A stretch of 64,000 nucleotides of DNA from Geobacteraceae bacterium (GTDB taxonomy: Bacteria > Desulfobacterota > Desulfuromonadia > Geobacterales > Geobacteraceae): NCBI GenBank assembly GCA_009773645.1, contig WSYB01000010.1, positions 1-64,000 on the forward strand, in the 5' to 3' direction. Each line of letters opens with the position of its first letter. Within the stretch, counting starts at the first letter, position 1. The notes under the pieces were generated by a model, which ran no database searches, was not told the origin of the DNA, and saw nothing but the letters and a program-made list of their open reading frames with translations. A program made the translations under genes and the position numbers. Shown here one piece after another: positions 820 to 33,955 of this stretch.

Positions 820-1083
820 ATTCGGAAAGTGATGCTCAACCAGAAAGATGCATCTGACCAAAAGTTGTCAGCTGATCTCCCGGCCCGTTCAGGATGTTTT
901 TCAACAGCCCACCGGCGACCATTTCCTCATTCTTCGAGGCGACCGGAGAAGAACAGGTAACGATCTTCGGGGTGATTTTTCCACGAAATCCTTGAGGTTT
1001 GGGACGGAATGTATTATTTTGATGGGCGGTGAAATGATCCGATTTCCCTTATACAAATCCGTTTGTTGCCCAAGGAGAATTCA
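820..1083. other. Intergenic region, no supported gene
   Basis: About 260 bp between the broken hydrolase and the cytochrome gene. Open frames exist on both strands but have no convincing start and no recognisable product. The only clear signal is the Shine-Dalgarno AAGGAG at 1072-1077 belonging to the next gene. Confidence 0.5.
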
Positions 1084-3210
1084 GTGCGACGTTTTTTCCT
1101 GTTCATGCTCCTCCTTTCCATTCCGGTCCTGCTCTACGCCAAGGAATTCAAGGTCGTTACCTACAATACCGACAATGCCGGCAAGGTCTTCTTTGACCAC
1201 GACATCCATCTGAAAAAACTGAGCAACAACTGTCCCCTCTGTCACAATTCCCTCTATAATGTCGCCAAGAAGAACCCGACCACCTCCATGGCGGATATGG
1301 ACAAGGGGATGTCGTGCGGCGCCTGCCATAATAAAGTCAAGGCCTTCCCCCTTGCCGAGTGCACGAGATGCCATGTGACGAAGGAAGTCCCCATCGAAAT
1401 TCCCGATTTCGGCACGTTGATCTTCAGCCACAAGTTCCATGTGGCGCTTTACCGGTGCGAGGATTGTCACAACAAGCTGTTCAGGGCCGGCCCCGACAAC
1501 CCGCACATTTCCATGGCCCAGATGGAGCAGGGGCTTTCCTGCGGCGGCTGCCACGACGGCAAAACCGCCTTTTCCGTCAAAGGGGACTGCACTAAGTGCC
1601 ACGCGGTCAAGGACCTGGACTTCGGCGGTCAGGCGTTTTTCGGCCACACTTTCCATCTGGAGATGTACAAGTGCGGCGATTGCCACAGCAAGCTCTTTGT
1701 GGCCGGGCCGAAAGCCAAGCGTTACACCATGCTGGACATGGAGCAGGGGCTTTCCTGCGGCGGCTGCCATGACGGCAAAAGCGCCTTTTCCGTCAAAGGT
1801 GACTGTGAAAAATGCCATCGGACGACCAAGGATGTCACCTTCAAGCCAACCAACGGCTTTTTCCCCCACAAATTCCATCTGGGAATATACCGATGCGCCG
1901 ACTGCCACAGCGGCATCTTTGTAGGCGGCGCCGGAGCCAAGCGTTACACCATGCCTGACATGGAAAAGGCCAGATCGTGCGGCGCCTGCCATCTGGGCGA
2001 TATCGCGTTTTCCGTGACCGGAAGCTGCGACAGATGCCATAAAGACCCCAAAGACATCGTCTACGACGTTAAGGATGCCGGCAAGGCCCCCTTCAGTCAC
2101 TCTGTGCACACGGGAATGTACAAGTGCGACGATTGCCACAACAAGGTCTTTACCACGGGGGTTGCGCGCAAGAGCTCTACCATGGCGGATATGGAGAAGG
2201 GGAAGTCGTGCGGAGCCTGCCACGACGGGAAATCGGCCTTTACCGCTACGGCCAACTGCGGCAAATGTCATCCCGTCAAGGATTTCACCTATGTGGATGA
2301 CGCATTTTTCAGCCATGACAGACATCTGGAGATGTACATATGTTACGATTGCCACAAGGGGCTGTTCGTCGCCGGGCCGGGCAATAAAAGCAGGTCCATG
2401 GCCGAAATGGAAAAGGGGGTGTCCTGCGGCGCCTGCCACCTGGGGGATATCGCGTTTTCCGTGGCCGGGAGCTGCGACAGATGCCACAAATCGACCATCG
2501 ATATTTCCATGAATACCCCGGGGGCCGGGGTGACCTGGTTCAGCCATAAAATTCATACCGGCTTGTACAAGTGCGGCGACTGCCATAACGCCCTTTTTGT
2601 CGGCGGCCCTTCCGCCAAGCGTTATACCATGGCCGACATGGAGAAAGGGAGTTCGTGCGGCGCCTGCCACGACGGCAAAACGGCATTTACGGTCAAGGAA
2701 AACTGCGAAAAATGCCATCCGGTGAAAGAGATAAAGTTCAAAGATTCAGGCGCCATGTTCAGCCACAAGTTTCATATCGGCCTGTACCGTTGCAATGAGT
2801 GCCACGACAAGTTTTTCATTCCCGGGCCGGGGAACAGGCGCGTTTCCATGCCGGAAATGGAGAAGGGGAAATCGTGCGGTGCCTGTCATGAGAGCAAAAC
2901 CGCCTTCTCGGTCACCGGCAGCTGTGCAAAATGCCACAAGACGAGTACGATCAAATATGAGTTTCCTGCCAACATGAAGGTCCAAAGCGTCATGTTCAGC
3001 CACAAGGTGCATATCGGTAAGGGATATAACTGCAGCGACTGCCATTACAAGTTATATGCCGCAGGCGCCGGCAGGAAATCGTTCACCATGAAGGAGATGA
3101 ACGAGGGGAAATCGTGCGGCGCCTGCCATGGCATGGCCATGGCTTTCAGCGTTCGGGAATCGGCTAACTGTATCAGGTGCCATGTTGATCAATCCGACGG
3201 CGCTCCGTAA
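1084..3210 (+). CDS. 27-heme cytochrome of nine c7-type triheme modules
   Basis: Secreted multiheme cytochrome. The start is taken as GTG 1084, 7 bp after AAGGAG, which gives a signal peptide (RRFFLFMLLLSIPVLLYAK); an upstream TTG at 1063 would put charged residues before it. After the signal come nine tandem repeats of about 72 residues. Each has FSHKxH, CxxCH, then SCGxCH, then a third CxxCH: 27 heme-binding motifs in 708 residues. The repeats match the triheme 'nanowire' cytochrome c7 family known from Geobacter polymers such as the 12-heme GSU1996. No lipobox or membrane anchor is visible, so it is probably periplasmic or exported. Modules 4 and 6 are nearly identical in their second half. 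It stands alone; leuS follows 114 bp later. Confidence 0.9.
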   Translation: MRRFFLFMLLLSIPVLLYAKEFKVVTYNTDNAGKVFFDHDIHLKKLSNNCPLCHNSLYNVAKKNPTTSMADMDKGMSCGACHNKVKAFPLAECTRCHVTKEVPIEIPDFGTLIFSHKFHVALYRCEDCHNKLFRAGPDNPHISMAQMEQGLSCGGCHDGKTAFSVKGDCTKCHAVKDLDFGGQAFFGHTFHLEMYKCGDCHSKLFVAGPKAKRYTMLDMEQGLSCGGCHDGKSAFSVKGDCEKCHRTTKDVTFKPTNGFFPHKFHLGIYRCADCHSGIFVGGAGAKRYTMPDMEKARSCGACHLGDIAFSVTGSCDRCHKDPKDIVYDVKDAGKAPFSHSVHTGMYKCDDCHNKVFTTGVARKSSTMADMEKGKSCGACHDGKSAFTATANCGKCHPVKDFTYVDDAFFSHDRHLEMYICYDCHKGLFVAGPGNKSRSMAEMEKGVSCGACHLGDIAFSVAGSCDRCHKSTIDISMNTPGAGVTWFSHKIHTGLYKCGDCHNALFVGGPSAKRYTMADMEKGSSCGACHDGKTAFTVKENCEKCHPVKEIKFKDSGAMFSHKFHIGLYRCNECHDKFFIPGPGNRRVSMPEMEKGKSCGACHESKTAFSVTGSCAKCHKTSTIKYEFPANMKVQSVMFSHKVHIGKGYNCSDCHYKLYAAGAGRKSFTMKEMNEGKSCGACHGMAMAFSVRESANCIRCHVDQSDGAP

Positions 3211-3324: not shown

Positions 3325-5799
3325 TTGGAAGAAAAGTATATCCCCAAAGGCGTAGAGGAAAAGTGGCAGAAATTCTGGGAGGCCAACAAGAGTTTTAAGG
3401 CCGTTGAGGATAAGAACAGGAAGAAGTATTACCTCCTGGAGATGTTCCCCTATCCGTCCGGCCGTATTCATATGGGGCATGTGCGCAACTATTCCATAGG
3501 CGATGTGGTGGCCCGGTTTAAAAGGATGAGGGGGTTTAACGTCCTTCATCCCATGGGGTGGGACGCTTTCGGCATGCCGGCGGAGAATGCCGCAATCCAG
3601 CACAAGAGCCACCCGGCCGAATGGACGTACGAAAACATCGCATACATGCGGGGCCAGCTGAAAAAGATGGGGCTTTCCTATGACTGGGACCGGGAACTGG
3701 CCACCTGCGACGTGGAATACTACAAGTGGGAGCAGCTCATTTTCCTGCAGATGTACAAAAAGGGGCTTGCCTACAAGAAGACCTCGTTCGTCAACTGGTG
3801 TCCCACGTGTGAGACGGTGCTGGCCAACGAACAGGTGGAGGAGGGCTGCTGCTGGCGTTGTGACAGCGAGGTTAAACAGAAGGAGCTGGATCAGTGGTCC
3901 TTCAAGATAACCGATTACGCCGAAGAACTGCTGGACTATACCTACAAGCTTCCCGGCTGGCCGGAACGGGTCCTTACCATGCAGCGCAACTGGATCGGGA
4001 AAAGCTTCGGCTGCGAGATCGACTTCCCGCTGGAAGGGCATCTGGCAAAGATCAGGGTCTTCACCACCCGCCAGGATACCCTCTTTGGCGCCACCTTCAT
4101 GTCCCTTGCCCCGGAGCATCCCATGGCGCTGGAACTGACCACTCCCGAAAAACGGGCGGAAGTGGAAGCCTTTATCGACAAGGTGCAGAAGACCGAGAAA
4201 GCAAAGCGCACCGCCGAGGATTTTGAAAAGGAGGGGGTTTTTACCGGAAGCTTCTGCATAAATCCGGTGACCAACCGCAGAATGCCCGTCTATCTGGCCA
4301 ACTTCGTCCTGACCGACTACGGAACCGGCGCCGTCATGGCGGTGCCGACCCACGATCAGCGGGACTTCGAATTCGCCGGGAAATACGGACTTCCCCTGCA
4401 GGTGGTGATTGAGCCGGAAGGGGAAAAACTCGATCCGCAGACCATGGAGTGTGCCGTGACCGCTGAAGGGATCATGGTGAATTCCGGTCAGTTCGACGGC
4501 CTCACGAGCTCTGAGGCGAAGGAGAGGATCGCCGATTACCTGGAAAAGGAGGGGATCGGCAGGAAAACCGTGAATTTTCGCCTGCGCGACTGGGGCATTT
4601 CCCGGCAGCGCTATTGGGGCAATCCGATTCCGGTCATAAACTGCGAGTTGTGCGGGGTGGTGCCGGTCCCCGAAAAGGACCTGCCGGTGGTCCTCCCCAT
4701 GGACGCCACGTTTTCCGGCGAAGGGGGGAACCCCCTCGCCAGGGTGGAAGCGTTTGTCAATACGACCTGCCCGCAGTGCGGCGAGGCGGCCCGCCGTGAG
4801 ACCGATACCATGGATACCTTTGTGGAATCGTCGTGGTATTTTCTCCGCTACTGCTGTCCGGATTTTTTCTCAGGGCCTCTGGACAAGGCCAGGGCCGAAT
4901 ACTGGATGTCGGTGGATCAGTACATAGGAGGGATCGAACATGCGGTGCTGCATCTCCTTTACGCCCGTTTTTTCACCAAGGTGCTGCGCGATCTGGGTTA
5001 CATCGACATCGACGAACCGTTCATCAATCTCCTCACCCAGGGGATGGTGATCAAGGACGGGGCGAAGATGAGCAAGTCCAAGGGGAACGTGGTGGACCCC
5101 AATGCGCTCATCGAGAAATACGGGGCTGATACCGCCAGGCTCTTTTCTCTCTTTGCCGCACCGCCCGAGAAGGACCTGGACTGGAGCGACCAGGGGGTTG
5201 ACGGGAGCTTCCGTTTTCTGAACCGCGTCTGGAAGCTTGCCTATGAAACCCTGCCGCTGATCGAGGGGGCGTCCTCCCTTGATGCCGATACCTTGAGCGA
5301 AGAGGGGAAAGCCCTGCGCCGGGCCGTCCACAAGACCATCAGGAAGGTAAGCGAGGATATCGAAGACCGGTTTCATTTCAATACGGCCATTGCCGCGGTT
5401 ATGGAACTGGTGAATGCCATCCAGTCCTTTGAACCGAAGAACGACCCGCGCCATGCCCCGGTTTTGAAGGAAGCGATTGAAAGCGTTGTTCTCCTTCTTA
5501 CCCCGATTGCCCCGCATTTTGCCGAAGAGCTGTGGGAAGGGCTGGGGCATGCCGGCGGGGTGGAAAAGGCCGGCTGGCCCACCTTTGACCCGTCCGCCGC
5601 CGTTGATGAAGAGTTGTTGATTGTCGTTCAGGTCAACGGGAAGCTGCGCGGCAAGGTCACCGTCCAGGCTGCTGCCGGCGAGGACGAGGTGAAGGGAGCG
5701 GCCCTTGCCGATGAAAAGGTGAAGGCGTTCATGGAAGGAAAGAGTGTCAGGAAGGTGATTTACGTCCCCGGCAAACTGGTGAACATTGTGGTGGGGTGA
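3325..5799 (+). CDS. leuS: Leucyl-tRNA synthetase
   Basis: Class I synthetase that charges tRNA-Leu in the cytoplasm. The 824-residue length is normal. The HIGH signature appears as HMGH at residues 49-52 and the KMSKS loop at 581-585. The Cys-rich zinc knuckles (CPTCE...CWRCD) and the editing-domain motif [14 protein letters not shown] are present. The start is TTG 3325, 7 bp after GGAGGA at 3312-3317; no better in-frame ATG exists. lptE and holA follow closely, so the three are probably co-transcribed. Confidence 0.97.
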
Positions 5800-9926: not shown

Positions 9927-10322
9927 TCACGCCAGCAGCACGATGATGCCGTCGTCGCTGACCTCTACGCCGTACCGTTTCAACGGCCGGTCTGCCGGCC
10001 CCTTGTTGACCATCCCTTGTCGGTCGAAACGGCTGCCGTGGCAGGGACACACGAGTCCCGCCGGAGTTACCGATACGGTGCAACCGAGATGGGTGCAGAC
10101 CAGATCGAGGGCGTACAGTTCACCCTTCTCCCTGATGACCGCAATCCTTGCCTGGCGGTAGACCAGTGCCCCCTCGGCCGGGATATCCGCTTTTGCCAGG
10201 GTCAGTTTCACAGCCCGCTTTCCGGGCTGCGGAGATAGGTACCGCCTCAGCAGCAATAGTCCGGCAATCCCTGAAACTAGCGTGGTGAGGAAATGTCTGC
10301 GCGATTTACCAATGCTTTCCAT
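9927..10322 (-). CDS. extO: Rieske [2Fe-2S] protein
   Basis: High-potential iron-sulfur subunit of the bc complex. From ATG 10322 (131 residues) it begins MESIGKSRRHFLTTLVSG, a Tat signal/anchor usual for Rieske proteins. Both cluster boxes are intact: CTHLGC and CPCHGS. It overlaps the end of the upstream multiheme cytochrome by 46 bp in another frame. The twin-Arg motif argues that this start, not the longer frame from 10430, is right. 56 bp separate it from cytochrome b. Confidence 0.9.
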   Translation of the reverse strand: MESIGKSRRHFLTTLVSGIAGLLLLRRYLSPQPGKRAVKLTLAKADIPAEGALVYRQARIAVIREKGELYALDLVCTHLGCTVSVTPAGLVCPCHGSRFDRQGMVNKGPADRPLKRYGVEVSDDGIIVLLA

Positions 10323-11527
10323 TTTTCCACATATGCCTTGTAATAGGCTGGACTCTTCTTCGTCATTGTCTTGTAGCGTTCGAGCGGCAAGAACCCGCCG
10401 TTCACCACGCGTTGGCCGTTTCTGTCCCAAAAGGAGGAAAGGGTCAAGCCATCTTTACGGAGCTCGTAGAGCCGTTCTTCCGGCCGCTCCAATATGAAGC
10501 GCCGGGGATTGTCGTGGCACCCCTCACACATGACCGTACCGCGGCGAACCGTATGGGGGAAGAACGCCCGCCATTCCGCTGCCAGGAGGCGGTTCTCCGT
10601 TCCCACCGGCCGATCATGGTCGATGGCGGTGAAAAAGGCGATGAATTCGGGACGGATCGGGCTCACTCTGCCGGAGCTGTTGATGCCGAGAGGCGGTGCA
10701 TCCTGCCGCTTCAGGTAGGCGCTCTTCACATACTCTCGATTGTCCCCCCGCAGATCATAATCGTCACGGGACGGACTGTCGGTGAAACGGAGATAGAAGG
10801 TGCCGTATTCCTGGGCGCCCCATGCGGAATGGCAGGCATAGCATTCAAGCTTATTCATGTGCGCGGCGATCCGGTGCTCGATGACATCTCCATCGACCAG
10901 GTGGCAGTCACGGCAGTTTTTTGCCGCCTTCCGCCCGGCGATGAGGCTTTGCATGGAGTGGCAGTCGCGACATTGCAGGCCGGCTTCAAAGTGGACGTCG
11001 GGGAGCATTTTGAGGAATGTCTCGCCGTTGGCCGCGGCTCCCCTCTGATAGCGCATGTTGTCTTCGCGGGGAGCCATTCCCCGGTAGTCGCTCCCCACGT
11101 AATATCCCTTGTGACAGTCAAGGCATGAGTCGTCGGTTGCCGTGCCGATCCGGTGACCGCTTTCCCCATGACAGTCGAGACAATCCTGAAGATGGCAGGA
11201 ATTGCAGTTTTTCTCGAAGAAGTGCGAATCCGCGGTGCCGAAAGTGCGGGCGACGAACTGCCGTTCCCGCGCCCGGGTCGCCATGGCGTGGGAAAACAGG
11301 GCTGCGTACCCCCGATGGCAGCCGGTGCATCCCCGTGCTCCGCCCGTTGCCGCGCCGGGTCTGGCGAGGGTTTTGGTTTCATCCAGATGACAGGCGAGGC
11401 AGGGGAGCTTCCCATGAACGCCCAGGACGGAAACCCTGTGGCAGACCGTGCAGCTTTCACCGCCGTAAGCGGTGACGGCGCTAACGGCCATCAAACAGGC
11501 GGCGGTGAAGAGTATCATCAAGCGCAC
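10277..11527 (-). CDS. extN: Decaheme cytochrome c of the bc operon
   Basis: Periplasmic multiheme cytochrome of 416 residues with signal peptide MRLMILFTAACLMAVSAVTAYG. It has ten CxxCH motifs (CTVCH, CLACH, CTGCH, CNSCH, CLDCH twice, CRDCH twice, CYACH, CEGCH). The second half between hemes 9 and 10 is a longer heme-free region that shares wording (YLKRQDAPPLGINSSGRVSP) with the similar segment of the upstream 12-heme protein (NQRGRISPVTPG), so the two are paralogous there. It overlaps the gene before it by 47 bp and the Rieske gene by 46 bp. Position matches extN; the symbol is from memory. Confidence 0.75.
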   Translation of the reverse strand: MRLMILFTAACLMAVSAVTAYGGESCTVCHRVSVLGVHGKLPCLACHLDETKTLARPGAATGGARGCTGCHRGYAALFSHAMATRARERQFVARTFGTADSHFFEKNCNSCHLQDCLDCHGESGHRIGTATDDSCLDCHKGYYVGSDYRGMAPREDNMRYQRGAAANGETFLKMLPDVHFEAGLQCRDCHSMQSLIAGRKAAKNCRDCHLVDGDVIEHRIAAHMNKLECYACHSAWGAQEYGTFYLRFTDSPSRDDYDLRGDNREYVKSAYLKRQDAPPLGINSSGRVSPIRPEFIAFFTAIDHDRPVGTENRLLAAEWRAFFPHTVRRGTVMCEGCHDNPRRFILERPEERLYELRKDGLTLSSFWDRNGQRVVNGGFLPLERYKTMTKKSPAYYKAYVEKWKALVNRADISSPR

Positions 11528-13361
11528 GGTAATCCAGTTCCTTTCGATAAATCGGGTCTTTCGCCTTGTCGTGGCAGACGAGGCAGAGGTTGACCGCCAG
11601 CACCCGGCGCACTTCCCTGCCGTTCAAGGGGCGGGAGTTCTCCCTGGTGATGGCGGAATAGGCGGTGACCTTCCCCTTTTGCATGGTCAGAAAGCCGTCC
11701 AGCGGTTTACTGTCGGATTTTTCACAGAGCAGGGTGCCGCTTATGCTGTTTCCTGCCACCACGTGCTGACCGAAGCCGAGGAAGGCGGGATCACCGTGGC
11801 ATTCCCCGCATGTCACCGCCTTCTTGCCGGTATTATGGGAATAGAAGGGGGCGAAGCGGAGCTGCCGCTTCCCCTTGAAGCGGGCCACGTACTCTTCCCT
11901 GCTCCGGCTTCCGTCCGCTTCTATCACCGTGATGAAGGTCTGGCAGCCGGGGGTCACCGGAGAAATCCGGCCGCGCTGGTTCACCGCCAGTGGAAAAGGG
12001 TAGAGGGTCCGGTAGTCTTCGGTCTCGCTGAAATCGCCGGGGGTCTCCTTTTTCCTGATGAAGTCCATCCCCTGCGCGGTCCGGTCATAGGTCGTATGGC
12101 AGCCGTAACACTGGACAACGGTGCGGGAGTGGCAGGAATAGCATTCAAGCCGGCGGTGCCCGGCTACCAGATGTTCCGGGGTGCCGGAGATGACCTTGCT
12201 GGTGAAGATCTTGCCGCTTCTCTTGCCCAGCACGTATATGCGTCCGGCTTGATGGAAAACGTTTGAATAGGGGCGCCCCTTGGCGGTCAGGACCATCTCC
12301 ATTCCCGGCCGCATCATCTGCTTGTAGCTCTTTGATTCGCGAACCGCCTCTTCGTTTTCCCGGCTGATCGGGCGGTGACGGGGAGGGGCTGTCGGGGTGC
12401 CGTGACAGTCCTCGCAGCGTATCTCGGTCTGGAGATACATGTTCCGGTAGGCATAGCCGTCACCCATGACATCCCGTGAGGTATGGCAGTCAATGCACTC
12501 CATCCCGGCGGCAAAATGGACGTCCGGGGCTATATGGGTCAGATTGCGGTTGCCGCTTGCCATGACGGGACCGGGGAGACCGTTTCTGGTCGGCACCAGT
12601 GAATTATTGCCGTCGTAAAGCCCCTGATAGGAGAGGGCGATCCTCCCGCTCCGGTTGTGGCACCTGAAACAGACGTCATTGCCGGGGAGGGGTGTCATCT
12701 TGTGGCTGGCGGAATAGGGGGACTTACCATGCACGGTCGCATCGTTCCCCTTGTAGGTCGCGGTATCGTTGAAAGGGAAGTGGCAGGCAGCGCACCCCGA
12801 TGCGTGTCCGGCGCTGGACGCATCACCGTTTTCGATGCCCACATGGCAGCGAGAGCAGAACTTGCGATAGAGTTCCCCGGAAAGGTTGTCGAGCTCCGCC
12901 ACCGGCCGGTATTCTAAGGCATTCCCCCGGGAATCAAAAACGTTTCCCCCCGTTGCGCTGTAATTCCTTCCATCCTCTCCTTCCCAGGAGAGCTGGATAT
13001 TCCTGATCATCCCGGCGTTGGTCTGCATGATGGTGGATTTGACCCGGCCGAGCTGGTAGTAATGGCAGGGACCGCAGCTTTTATCCCAGAAAGCGGGGTC
13101 CGCGGGATTGCGCGGGCCGAACATTCCCCGGTGGGCTTTATCCGAACTCTTTCCAGCCGGATTCCCGCTGTGGCAGCTGATACACGAAGGATGTGAGATC
13201 GAGACCGGCTCGATTTTCCGATGGCAGGAGATGCAGTTTGCACTGTCCGTTTTGACGTTTCTGCAACCGGTTGATACCAGGAGCAGGAAAGTTAAAAAGA
13301 GAAATAATGCCCCCTCTCGGTTTCTTCGCAGCTTCACCTTTGCTGATATCCGACTTTGCAT
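11481..13361 (-). CDS. extM: Dodecaheme cytochrome c, first gene of the bc operon
   Basis: A 626-residue exported cytochrome with twelve CxxCH motifs. The N terminus has a hydrophobic stretch GALFLFLTFLLLVSTGC that could be a signal peptide ending in a lipobox-like TGC. The exact start is unsure: ATG 13361 has no clear Shine-Dalgarno, and GTG 13337 is an alternative. Typical family words are CIDCHTSRDVMGDG and PPRHRPISRENEEAV. It heads the leftward operon of six overlapping genes and shares a 104-bp intergenic region with the divergent rhodanese gene. Confidence 0.75.
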   Translation of the reverse strand: MQSRISAKVKLRRNREGALFLFLTFLLLVSTGCRNVKTDSANCISCHRKIEPVSISHPSCISCHSGNPAGKSSDKAHRGMFGPRNPADPAFWDKSCGPCHYYQLGRVKSTIMQTNAGMIRNIQLSWEGEDGRNYSATGGNVFDSRGNALEYRPVAELDNLSGELYRKFCSRCHVGIENGDASSAGHASGCAACHFPFNDTATYKGNDATVHGKSPYSASHKMTPLPGNDVCFRCHNRSGRIALSYQGLYDGNNSLVPTRNGLPGPVMASGNRNLTHIAPDVHFAAGMECIDCHTSRDVMGDGYAYRNMYLQTEIRCEDCHGTPTAPPRHRPISRENEEAVRESKSYKQMMRPGMEMVLTAKGRPYSNVFHQAGRIYVLGKRSGKIFTSKVISGTPEHLVAGHRRLECYSCHSRTVVQCYGCHTTYDRTAQGMDFIRKKETPGDFSETEDYRTLYPFPLAVNQRGRISPVTPGCQTFITVIEADGSRSREEYVARFKGKRQLRFAPFYSHNTGKKAVTCGECHGDPAFLGFGQHVVAGNSISGTLLCEKSDSKPLDGFLTMQKGKVTAYSAITRENSRPLNGREVRRVLAVNLCLVCHDKAKDPIYRKELDYRALDDTLHRRLFDGR

Positions 13362-13465
13362 TGTCGGTAAATATAAACAATTTTACTGATGCACGCAATT
13401 CATTTTCATGCTATATTCCGATGATATCGATATATTAAATCATGGAACTACACAAAGGAGGAGAG

Positions 13466-14884: not shown

Positions 14885-15232
14885 GTGAAACAGTACTTCA
14901 TTGCGGGAGTGGTGGTGACGGGTATCACGATGACGGCAGCGGGGGGATTCGGCGCGACGATGCAGGATCTCATCTATCAGGGGGCAACGGCGAACGACAT
15001 GGCCATTTTCCATGGGAAAAAACACCTTGAACGGGGCATCAAATGCGCTGAGTGCCACAATAAGGACGTCTTTCCAGAGAAGAAATTCGGGGCCGTCAAG
15101 ATCACCATGAAGTCGATCGCACAAGGGAAACACTGCGGGATATGCCATAACGGCACACGCGCCTTCGGAGTCACGGGAACCTGCAATCGCTGCCATCCGA
15201 TCAAGTCGGGCGATATGGTCGTTTACGACTGA
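14885..15232 (+). CDS. Small triheme cytochrome c7-like protein
   Basis: Periplasmic, 115 residues, GTG 14885 behind AAGGAGGTCACC. The signal peptide is MKQYFIAGVVVTGITMTAAGGFG. One triheme unit, CAECH...HCGICH...CNRCH, has the same spacing as the modules of the 27-heme gene at 1.1 kb (FHGKKHLERGIKC, then IAQGKHCGICHNGTRAFGV). It follows the rhodanese gene by 30 bp and is followed by a terminator, so these two genes form one transcription unit. Confidence 0.85.
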   Translation: MKQYFIAGVVVTGITMTAAGGFGATMQDLIYQGATANDMAIFHGKKHLERGIKCAECHNKDVFPEKKFGAVKITMKSIAQGKHCGICHNGTRAFGVTGTCNRCHPIKSGDMVVYD

Positions 15233-20759: not shown

Positions 20760-22124
20760 TTACCACTCCTCTTTCTGTTTCTGGACCAGTTTTTCGAAAT
20801 AGACATCCGCATTGGTCAGACGTTCGATCTCTTTATCGGCATAGCCAAGGGCCTTGAAGTTCAGGACCCCATTGGGAGCGTGGCATTTTTCGCAACTAAG
20901 GGCCTTGGTCCTGGTGACGAGGTGATTGCTGCCGAAAAATATGGTCTGCCAACCCGGTACCGGCTGGTACTCCTTGATGCCGAGGGTTTTCGCGGCAGAG
21001 GCGACCCCCGCCAGCGTATCACCGGTGGCCATCGGCGGAGCAAAATCCATGGAGAGAAGTTCTCCGGTTTTTTTATCAAAAAATGCTTTCCCTTGGAAAA
21101 TCTTGAAGGGATAGATCTTGCTGTTTTTGTCCTTCCTGTCTCCCTTGGGACCGATGAGGTGCGGCGTATTGGCAACGGTTTTGTTGTACCAGGCGTAAAA
21201 CGGCACGGTTTCATTGGCCTCTTTCTTCAGGGTGGTCGGCTCGTAAAACTTGTCGGCACCCTGTTCCCATCTGGTGAAGTCTTTTGCGATGGCTCCGCCG
21301 GTGCGCGGGATGTGGCAGGTCTGACAGGCGATACGTGCCGTGTGCCGGTTGAGGTCGGCATCCTTGTGCGGTTTGTCGCCGTGGCAATCGCTACAGGACA
21401 GCCTTAGCCCGTCATTGGCCCAGTTGTTCGGGTCAAATCCGGTCGGCATTTTATGATTTTTGGCCTTGTGGCAATCGACGCATACCATACCCTTTGCCGC
21501 GTGGACGTCCGCTTCCCCTGAGAAGGCAAACCCCCTCTTGATAAGGACACCCCCGCCCGCCGTTTCATGGCAGACCATGCAGTTTTTCGCGGTCGGCTTG
21601 CCGATGGCCAATGCAGCTTTTGTGCTGCGGTCCTGGCCCATGATCACCTGTCCCTTCTCGTCCTTGAAAGGTTTGCGCTGTCTGAAATCGTAATCGGCCG
21701 AGTGGCAGACGAGACAGTCGATGGCGTTTTCCGCCTCGGGTCCCGTGCTCCCCACATCGCTCAGGTGATTGCCCGGGTGACAGGTGTTGCAGCCGACAAA
21801 CTTGGTTTTGCCGGTCTCGGGGCTTTTGGGGATCTCCTTCAGGTTATTGACGATATCGTTGCCGTTGCACATGGTGTAGATGCGGTTTTTCATGCCGTAT
21901 TCCTTATCCGGGTCCAATCCGTCAACATTTGTCACCTTTGAGGCGTGTTTCCAGTGGACCGTGGATAAGAACTCCCTGGCCTTGCCGGAATGGCATTCTT
22001 CGCAGGTGGCAGGGCCTTTATAGCCGTTCTTTTCAATAAAATCTCTGCCGGGGTGCTCCCCGGCAGAGACCGTTGCCGCAAGTGCGACTAATGACAGGGC
22101 AATTATCAGGCTTCTTTTGTTCAT
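20760..22124 (-). CDS. Octaheme cytochrome related to octaheme tetrathionate reductase
   Basis: 454 residues, ATG 22124 behind GAGGAGCAG, signal peptide MNKRSLIIALSLVALAATVSAG. Eight CxxCH motifs (CEECH, CNTCH, CLVCH, CMVCH, CVDCH, CSDCH, CQTCH, CEKCH). The start CEECHSGKAREFLSTVHWKH recalls the CxxCH...EFxxTxHWxW opening of octaheme tetrathionate reductase (OTR) and related hydroxylamine-oxidoreductase-like proteins, and IDCLVCH is shared too. Whether it is an enzyme or an electron carrier for the Psr-like complex downstream cannot be told; no CxxCK catalytic site was seen. Confidence 0.82.
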   Translation of the reverse strand: MNKRSLIIALSLVALAATVSAGEHPGRDFIEKNGYKGPATCEECHSGKAREFLSTVHWKHASKVTNVDGLDPDKEYGMKNRIYTMCNGNDIVNNLKEIPKSPETGKTKFVGCNTCHPGNHLSDVGSTGPEAENAIDCLVCHSADYDFRQRKPFKDEKGQVIMGQDRSTKAALAIGKPTAKNCMVCHETAGGGVLIKRGFAFSGEADVHAAKGMVCVDCHKAKNHKMPTGFDPNNWANDGLRLSCSDCHGDKPHKDADLNRHTARIACQTCHIPRTGGAIAKDFTRWEQGADKFYEPTTLKKEANETVPFYAWYNKTVANTPHLIGPKGDRKDKNSKIYPFKIFQGKAFFDKKTGELLSMDFAPPMATGDTLAGVASAAKTLGIKEYQPVPGWQTIFFGSNHLVTRTKALSCEKCHAPNGVLNFKALGYADKEIERLTNADVYFEKLVQKQKEEW

Positions 22125-22139
22125 CTGCTCCTCACTGTA

Positions 22140-22160
22140 AGACGTTTAATACAAACGTCT
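22140..22160. promoter_or_regulatory. 8-bp palindrome upstream of the octaheme cytochrome gene
   Basis: AGACGTTT, 5-bp spacer AATAC, AAACGTCT. It lies 15 bp before the start codon at 22124 (minus strand), inside the likely 5' untranslated region. It could be an operator or an mRNA hairpin. The 100 bp beyond it are very AT-rich. Confidence 0.4.

Positions 22161-33880: not shown

Positions 33881-33955
<75 letters not shown>

Follow-up and report, generated by a model that had tools for sequence, protein, structure and literature searches.

The window analysed, a 64,000-nucleotide stretch of DNA from a member of the Geobacteraceae, contains near its beginning one intact gene for a c7-type multidomain cytochrome with 27 heme motifs, followed by leuS and then by lptE and holA (Table 1). 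The reading frame is open from position 1033 to 3207 on the forward strand, and the best start, as read from the sequence, is a GTG codon at 1084 with AAGGAG a few bases 5' of it; a TTG codon at 1063 represents an alternative in-frame start. A scan for promoters and terminators flanking the cytochrome gene gave no signal above chance, and an Rfam search detected no RNA element close to it, the sole match at the gathering threshold within the window being a tRNA gene at 33881-33952 (+).

Table 1. Coordinates of the cytochrome gene, its parts and its downstream neighbour in the window.
Feature	Position	Strand	Details
Ribosome-binding-site-like AAGGAG	1072..1078	+	5' of the GTG start; read from the sequence
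27-heme c7-type multidomain cytochrome gene	1084..3210	+	708 aa; GTG start; stop codon 3208-3210
Signal-peptide-like segment	1084..1140	+	residues 1-19, VRRFFLFMLLLSIPVLLYA, without lipobox; read from the sequence, N-termini of this kind also in 32 orthologues
Module 1	1165..1374	+	hemes 1-3; predicted axial Met69
Module 2	1390..1602	+	hemes 4-6; predicted axial Met144; extra His141
Module 3	1606..1818	+	hemes 7-9; predicted axial Met216
Module 4	1828..2040	+	hemes 10-12; predicted axial Met290
Module 5	2059..2271	+	hemes 13-15; predicted axial Met367; best match of GSU1996 domain C
Module 6	2275..2487	+	hemes 16-18; predicted axial Met439
Module 7	2506..2718	+	hemes 19-21; predicted axial Met516
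Module 8	2725..2937	+	hemes 22-24; predicted axial Met589
Module 9	2965..3183	+	hemes 25-27; predicted axial Met669
leuS, leucine--tRNA ligase	3325..5799	+	downstream neighbour; synteny marker separate from the cytochrome

The gene product contains exactly 27 CxxCH motifs, arranged in nine modules of three, whereas codon-shuffled versions of the gene (n = 1000) reached a maximum of three. All of its 54 cysteines lie within these motifs, and its 46 histidines comprise the 27 of the CxxCH motifs, 18 in nine FxHxxH motifs and a single additional residue, His141. Consistent with the direct count, the NCBIfam model TIGR04257, which describes a c(7)-type triheme 'nanowire' domain (nanowire_3heme), matches the protein nine times (737.4 bits; cut-off 40), as does the Pfam model PF14522. 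The tandem array of nine c7-type modules with 27 CxxCH motifs given in the preliminary description is thus borne out.

The N-terminus resembles a signal peptide, with a putative cleavage site, identified by eye, after residue 19 (VRRFFLFMLLLSIPVLLYA followed by KEF). It lacks a lipobox cysteine that could carry a lipid anchor, and no further hydrophobic segment was seen by eye in the remainder of the chain. The protein therefore looks like an exported soluble chain without a visible anchor, in agreement with the earlier reading. Its mature form would have a mass of 75.4 kDa as an apoprotein and of about 92 kDa with 27 hemes, at a computed pI of 8.6.

Other cytochromes are also encoded in the window. 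A small triheme c7 protein, PpcA-like in size, is found at 14885-15229 (+) (TIGR04257, 68.8 bits). Two multiheme cytochromes at 10283-13382 (-) match models for the ExtN/ExtO and ExtM components of a selenite/tellurite reduction operon; one of them is recognized by both the ExtN and the ExtO model with almost equal scores (668 and 675 bits, both above the cut-off), and the ExtM match reaches 1074 bits. A further cytochrome at 20766-22145 (-), with about eight heme motifs, obtains 156 bits with the octaheme model of the tetrathionate reductase family, well under its cut-off of 375, and may therefore belong to a distinct subgroup.

Heme ligation and module fold

The closest solved structures by sequence, 3OV0, 3OUE, 3OUQ and 1RWJ, all represent the 12-heme protein GSU1996 or fragments of it, and the same entries occupy the first four places in a Foldseek search with the predicted model. 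In GSU1996, Met209 of domain C and Met287 of domain D act as axial ligands (PMC10138318). When counted along the alignment, these residues correspond to the first methionine of an MxxM motif that precedes the middle CxxCH of each module. Neither this methionine nor either distal histidine is replaced in any of the nine modules across the 33 sequences compared, leading us to predict, by analogy with GSU1996, that the protein contains 18 His-His and nine His-Met hemes. The only histidine outside the CxxCH and FxHxxH motifs, His141, lies three residues before the predicted axial methionine of module 2; it is conserved in at least 90% of the orthologues and could be an alternative heme ligand.

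An AlphaFold model of the mature full chain, generated without hemes from 33 orthologues as input, was of moderate quality (mean pLDDT 69.8, pTM 0.34). It is fit for the analysis of single modules, whose fold matches 1RWJ and 3OV0, and says little on their relative placement; an extended chain of closely spaced hemes, as expected for this class, may be formed. The structure prediction proposed in the preliminary description has thus provided a usable fold for the single modules.

Conservation across the order

At a threshold of E <= 1e-150, a survey of 141 genomes from the same order detected the 27-heme gene in 41, this one included; in an even sample of the whole phylum (395 genomes), matches at E <= 1e-90 were restricted to that order. 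Coordinates and tblastn searches place leuS directly downstream, on the same strand and within about 200 bases, in all 41 genomes. Heme counts for 33 distinct intact copies, again including this one, came to exactly 27 in every case, so that the count of modules in relatives suggested earlier gave the same result as in the cytochrome itself. The spacing from the first heme of one module to that of the next is close to fixed, at 75-79, 72-74, 74-79, 77-80, 71-74, 77-79, 71-73 and 79-81 residues. Fragmented copies exist in two further genomes. One is cut by contig ends (L022/L023, L068), and the other, in Geotalea toluenoxydans (L021/L067), carries a frame break that points to sequence quality, because leuS is broken there as well.

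Comparisons across species show that modules mostly find their best match in the module of the same number, in 99% of comparisons for module 1, 92% for module 2 and 95% for module 9. This proportion is 55-77% for the middle modules, with confusion mainly of module 5 with 7 and of module 3 with 6. The nine-module array thus predates the split of these genera, and recent repeat expansion was rejected as a general account. A shorter c7 protein with five modules and 15 hemes (L069; G005:C1:1162869-1164065) was seen in a relative without the 27-heme gene, where it does not adjoin leuS; a frame of similar length (G052:C25:302129-303364) is known from its length only.

Discussion

Geobacter sulfurreducens is described as having three monomeric periplasmic 'nanowires of hemes', of which GSU2210 carries 27 hemes, and GSU0592 and GSU1996 carry 12 each (PMC10138318). 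The gene studied here is very probably the local counterpart of GSU2210, an assignment made from the heme number and class reported for that protein rather than from a sequence alignment; by description, the two proteins share their class, heme number and single-chain architecture. Two further c7 arrays of four modules each (343 and 354 aa; at C33 and C37) complete a trio in this genome that matches the one in G. sulfurreducens. GSU1996 (PDB 3OV0; domain C, 1RWJ) has the same c7-type domain with its FxHxxH motif, three CxxCH motifs and axial methionine, as well as a linear heme array in a single chain, but comprises four modules instead of nine. GSU0592, likewise compared by description only, is listed in the same class and would have four modules by heme count. 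The triheme cytochromes PpcA-E consist of a single module of the same fold, to which weak fold matches were obtained, with three hemes that are all His-His-ligated (PMC10138318). OmcS, OmcE and OmcZ also form long heme chains for electron transport, but as polymers of separate subunits that reach outside the cell, unlike the single-chain 27-heme cytochrome. An extracellular filament protein of this kind was rejected as a candidate, since there was no sequence or fold match to them among the solved structures.

The protein is therefore already known in kind and form, because GSU2210 has been published as a 27-heme cytochrome (PMC10138318). The preliminary description was mistaken in assuming that the c7 polymers known from G. 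sulfurreducens stop at 12 hemes, and its claim to novelty fails. The possibility it raised that many 27-heme orthologues had already been described holds largely rather than in full, with GSU2210 as the one described case and dozens of copies in public genomes. In the papers searched, we found no functional study of GSU2210, which is mentioned there in passing, nor any redox, expression or localization data or spectra for the protein studied here; two published gene lists give the location of GSU2210 as unknown or leave it blank, and no mention of GSU2209 was found.

The analysis shows the gene, its modules, the conservation of the ligands, and the orthologue group with its synteny. Judging from GSU1996 and GSU2210, on which our view of the heme loading, the continuity of the heme chain, the location, the partners and the role is modelled, the protein probably acts in the periplasm, where its hemes would serve both as a wire and as a store of electrons. 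It would be exported via its signal peptide, have 27 hemes attached covalently by the cytochrome c maturation machinery and fold as an extended version of GSU1996, with its nine c7-type triheme modules following one another. Each module would hold two His-His hemes and one His-Met heme, and neighbouring hemes, whether in the same module or in adjacent ones, would probably be near enough for electron hopping. The chain could then hold electrons or pass them from quinol-oxidizing cytochromes of the inner membrane or PpcA-type carriers to outer-membrane conduits, thereby acting as both wire and capacitor. Ferrihydrite reduction decreases when GSU1996, a predicted periplasmic protein, is deleted (PMC12094021). 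The soluble periplasmic wire or charge store envisaged at the outset is consistent with the signal-like N-terminus and the likeness to GSU1996 and GSU2210.

The array may also function mainly as an electron store, or redox buffer, and not as a directional wire. This alternative has a chance only slightly short of even, since the 12-heme relative GSU1996 has been called a capacitor (PMC10138318) and 27 hemes would give one soluble chain a large charge capacity; these points are, however, compatible with a wire function as well. An electrical contact at the outer surface or in secreted form has been argued for Gmet_0558, which is also listed with 27 hemes, but this protein was described by its homology to OmcO and not as a c7 polymer (PMC10989804). 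Such a role is very unlikely for the cytochrome studied here, which has no lipobox and no adjoining porin partner, its neighbours being leuS, lptE and holA, and whose counterpart GSU2210 is described as periplasmic (PMC10138318). Misassembly is a common risk for tandem repeats, but the existence of 33 distinct intact sequences with 27 hemes each, one open frame and near-identical module spacing excludes the frame error merging two genes that had been considered earlier and, together with the divergence of the modules within the chain (37-67% identity) and the fact that leuS is broken in the assembly with the sole frame-broken copy (L021), leaves virtually no probability for a fusion of two or more c7 genes by frame error or for a repeat misassembly.

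The periplasmic wire and store considered most probable here adds little as a discovery, since it extends a described class by one more genome. Tandem repeats often vary in number, and the constancy of nine modules looks as if length had been selected. On a scale of about 3 nm per module, derived from the 12 nm of the four-module GSU1996, nine modules would form a chain of about 27 nm. As a bridge of fixed length, it could span the periplasm between inner- and outer-membrane cytochromes and would not tolerate the loss or gain of repeats, although we consider it unlikely that module number is selected in this manner. The constant number of nine modules across the order provides a modest lead for distinguishing length-matched wires from simple stores.
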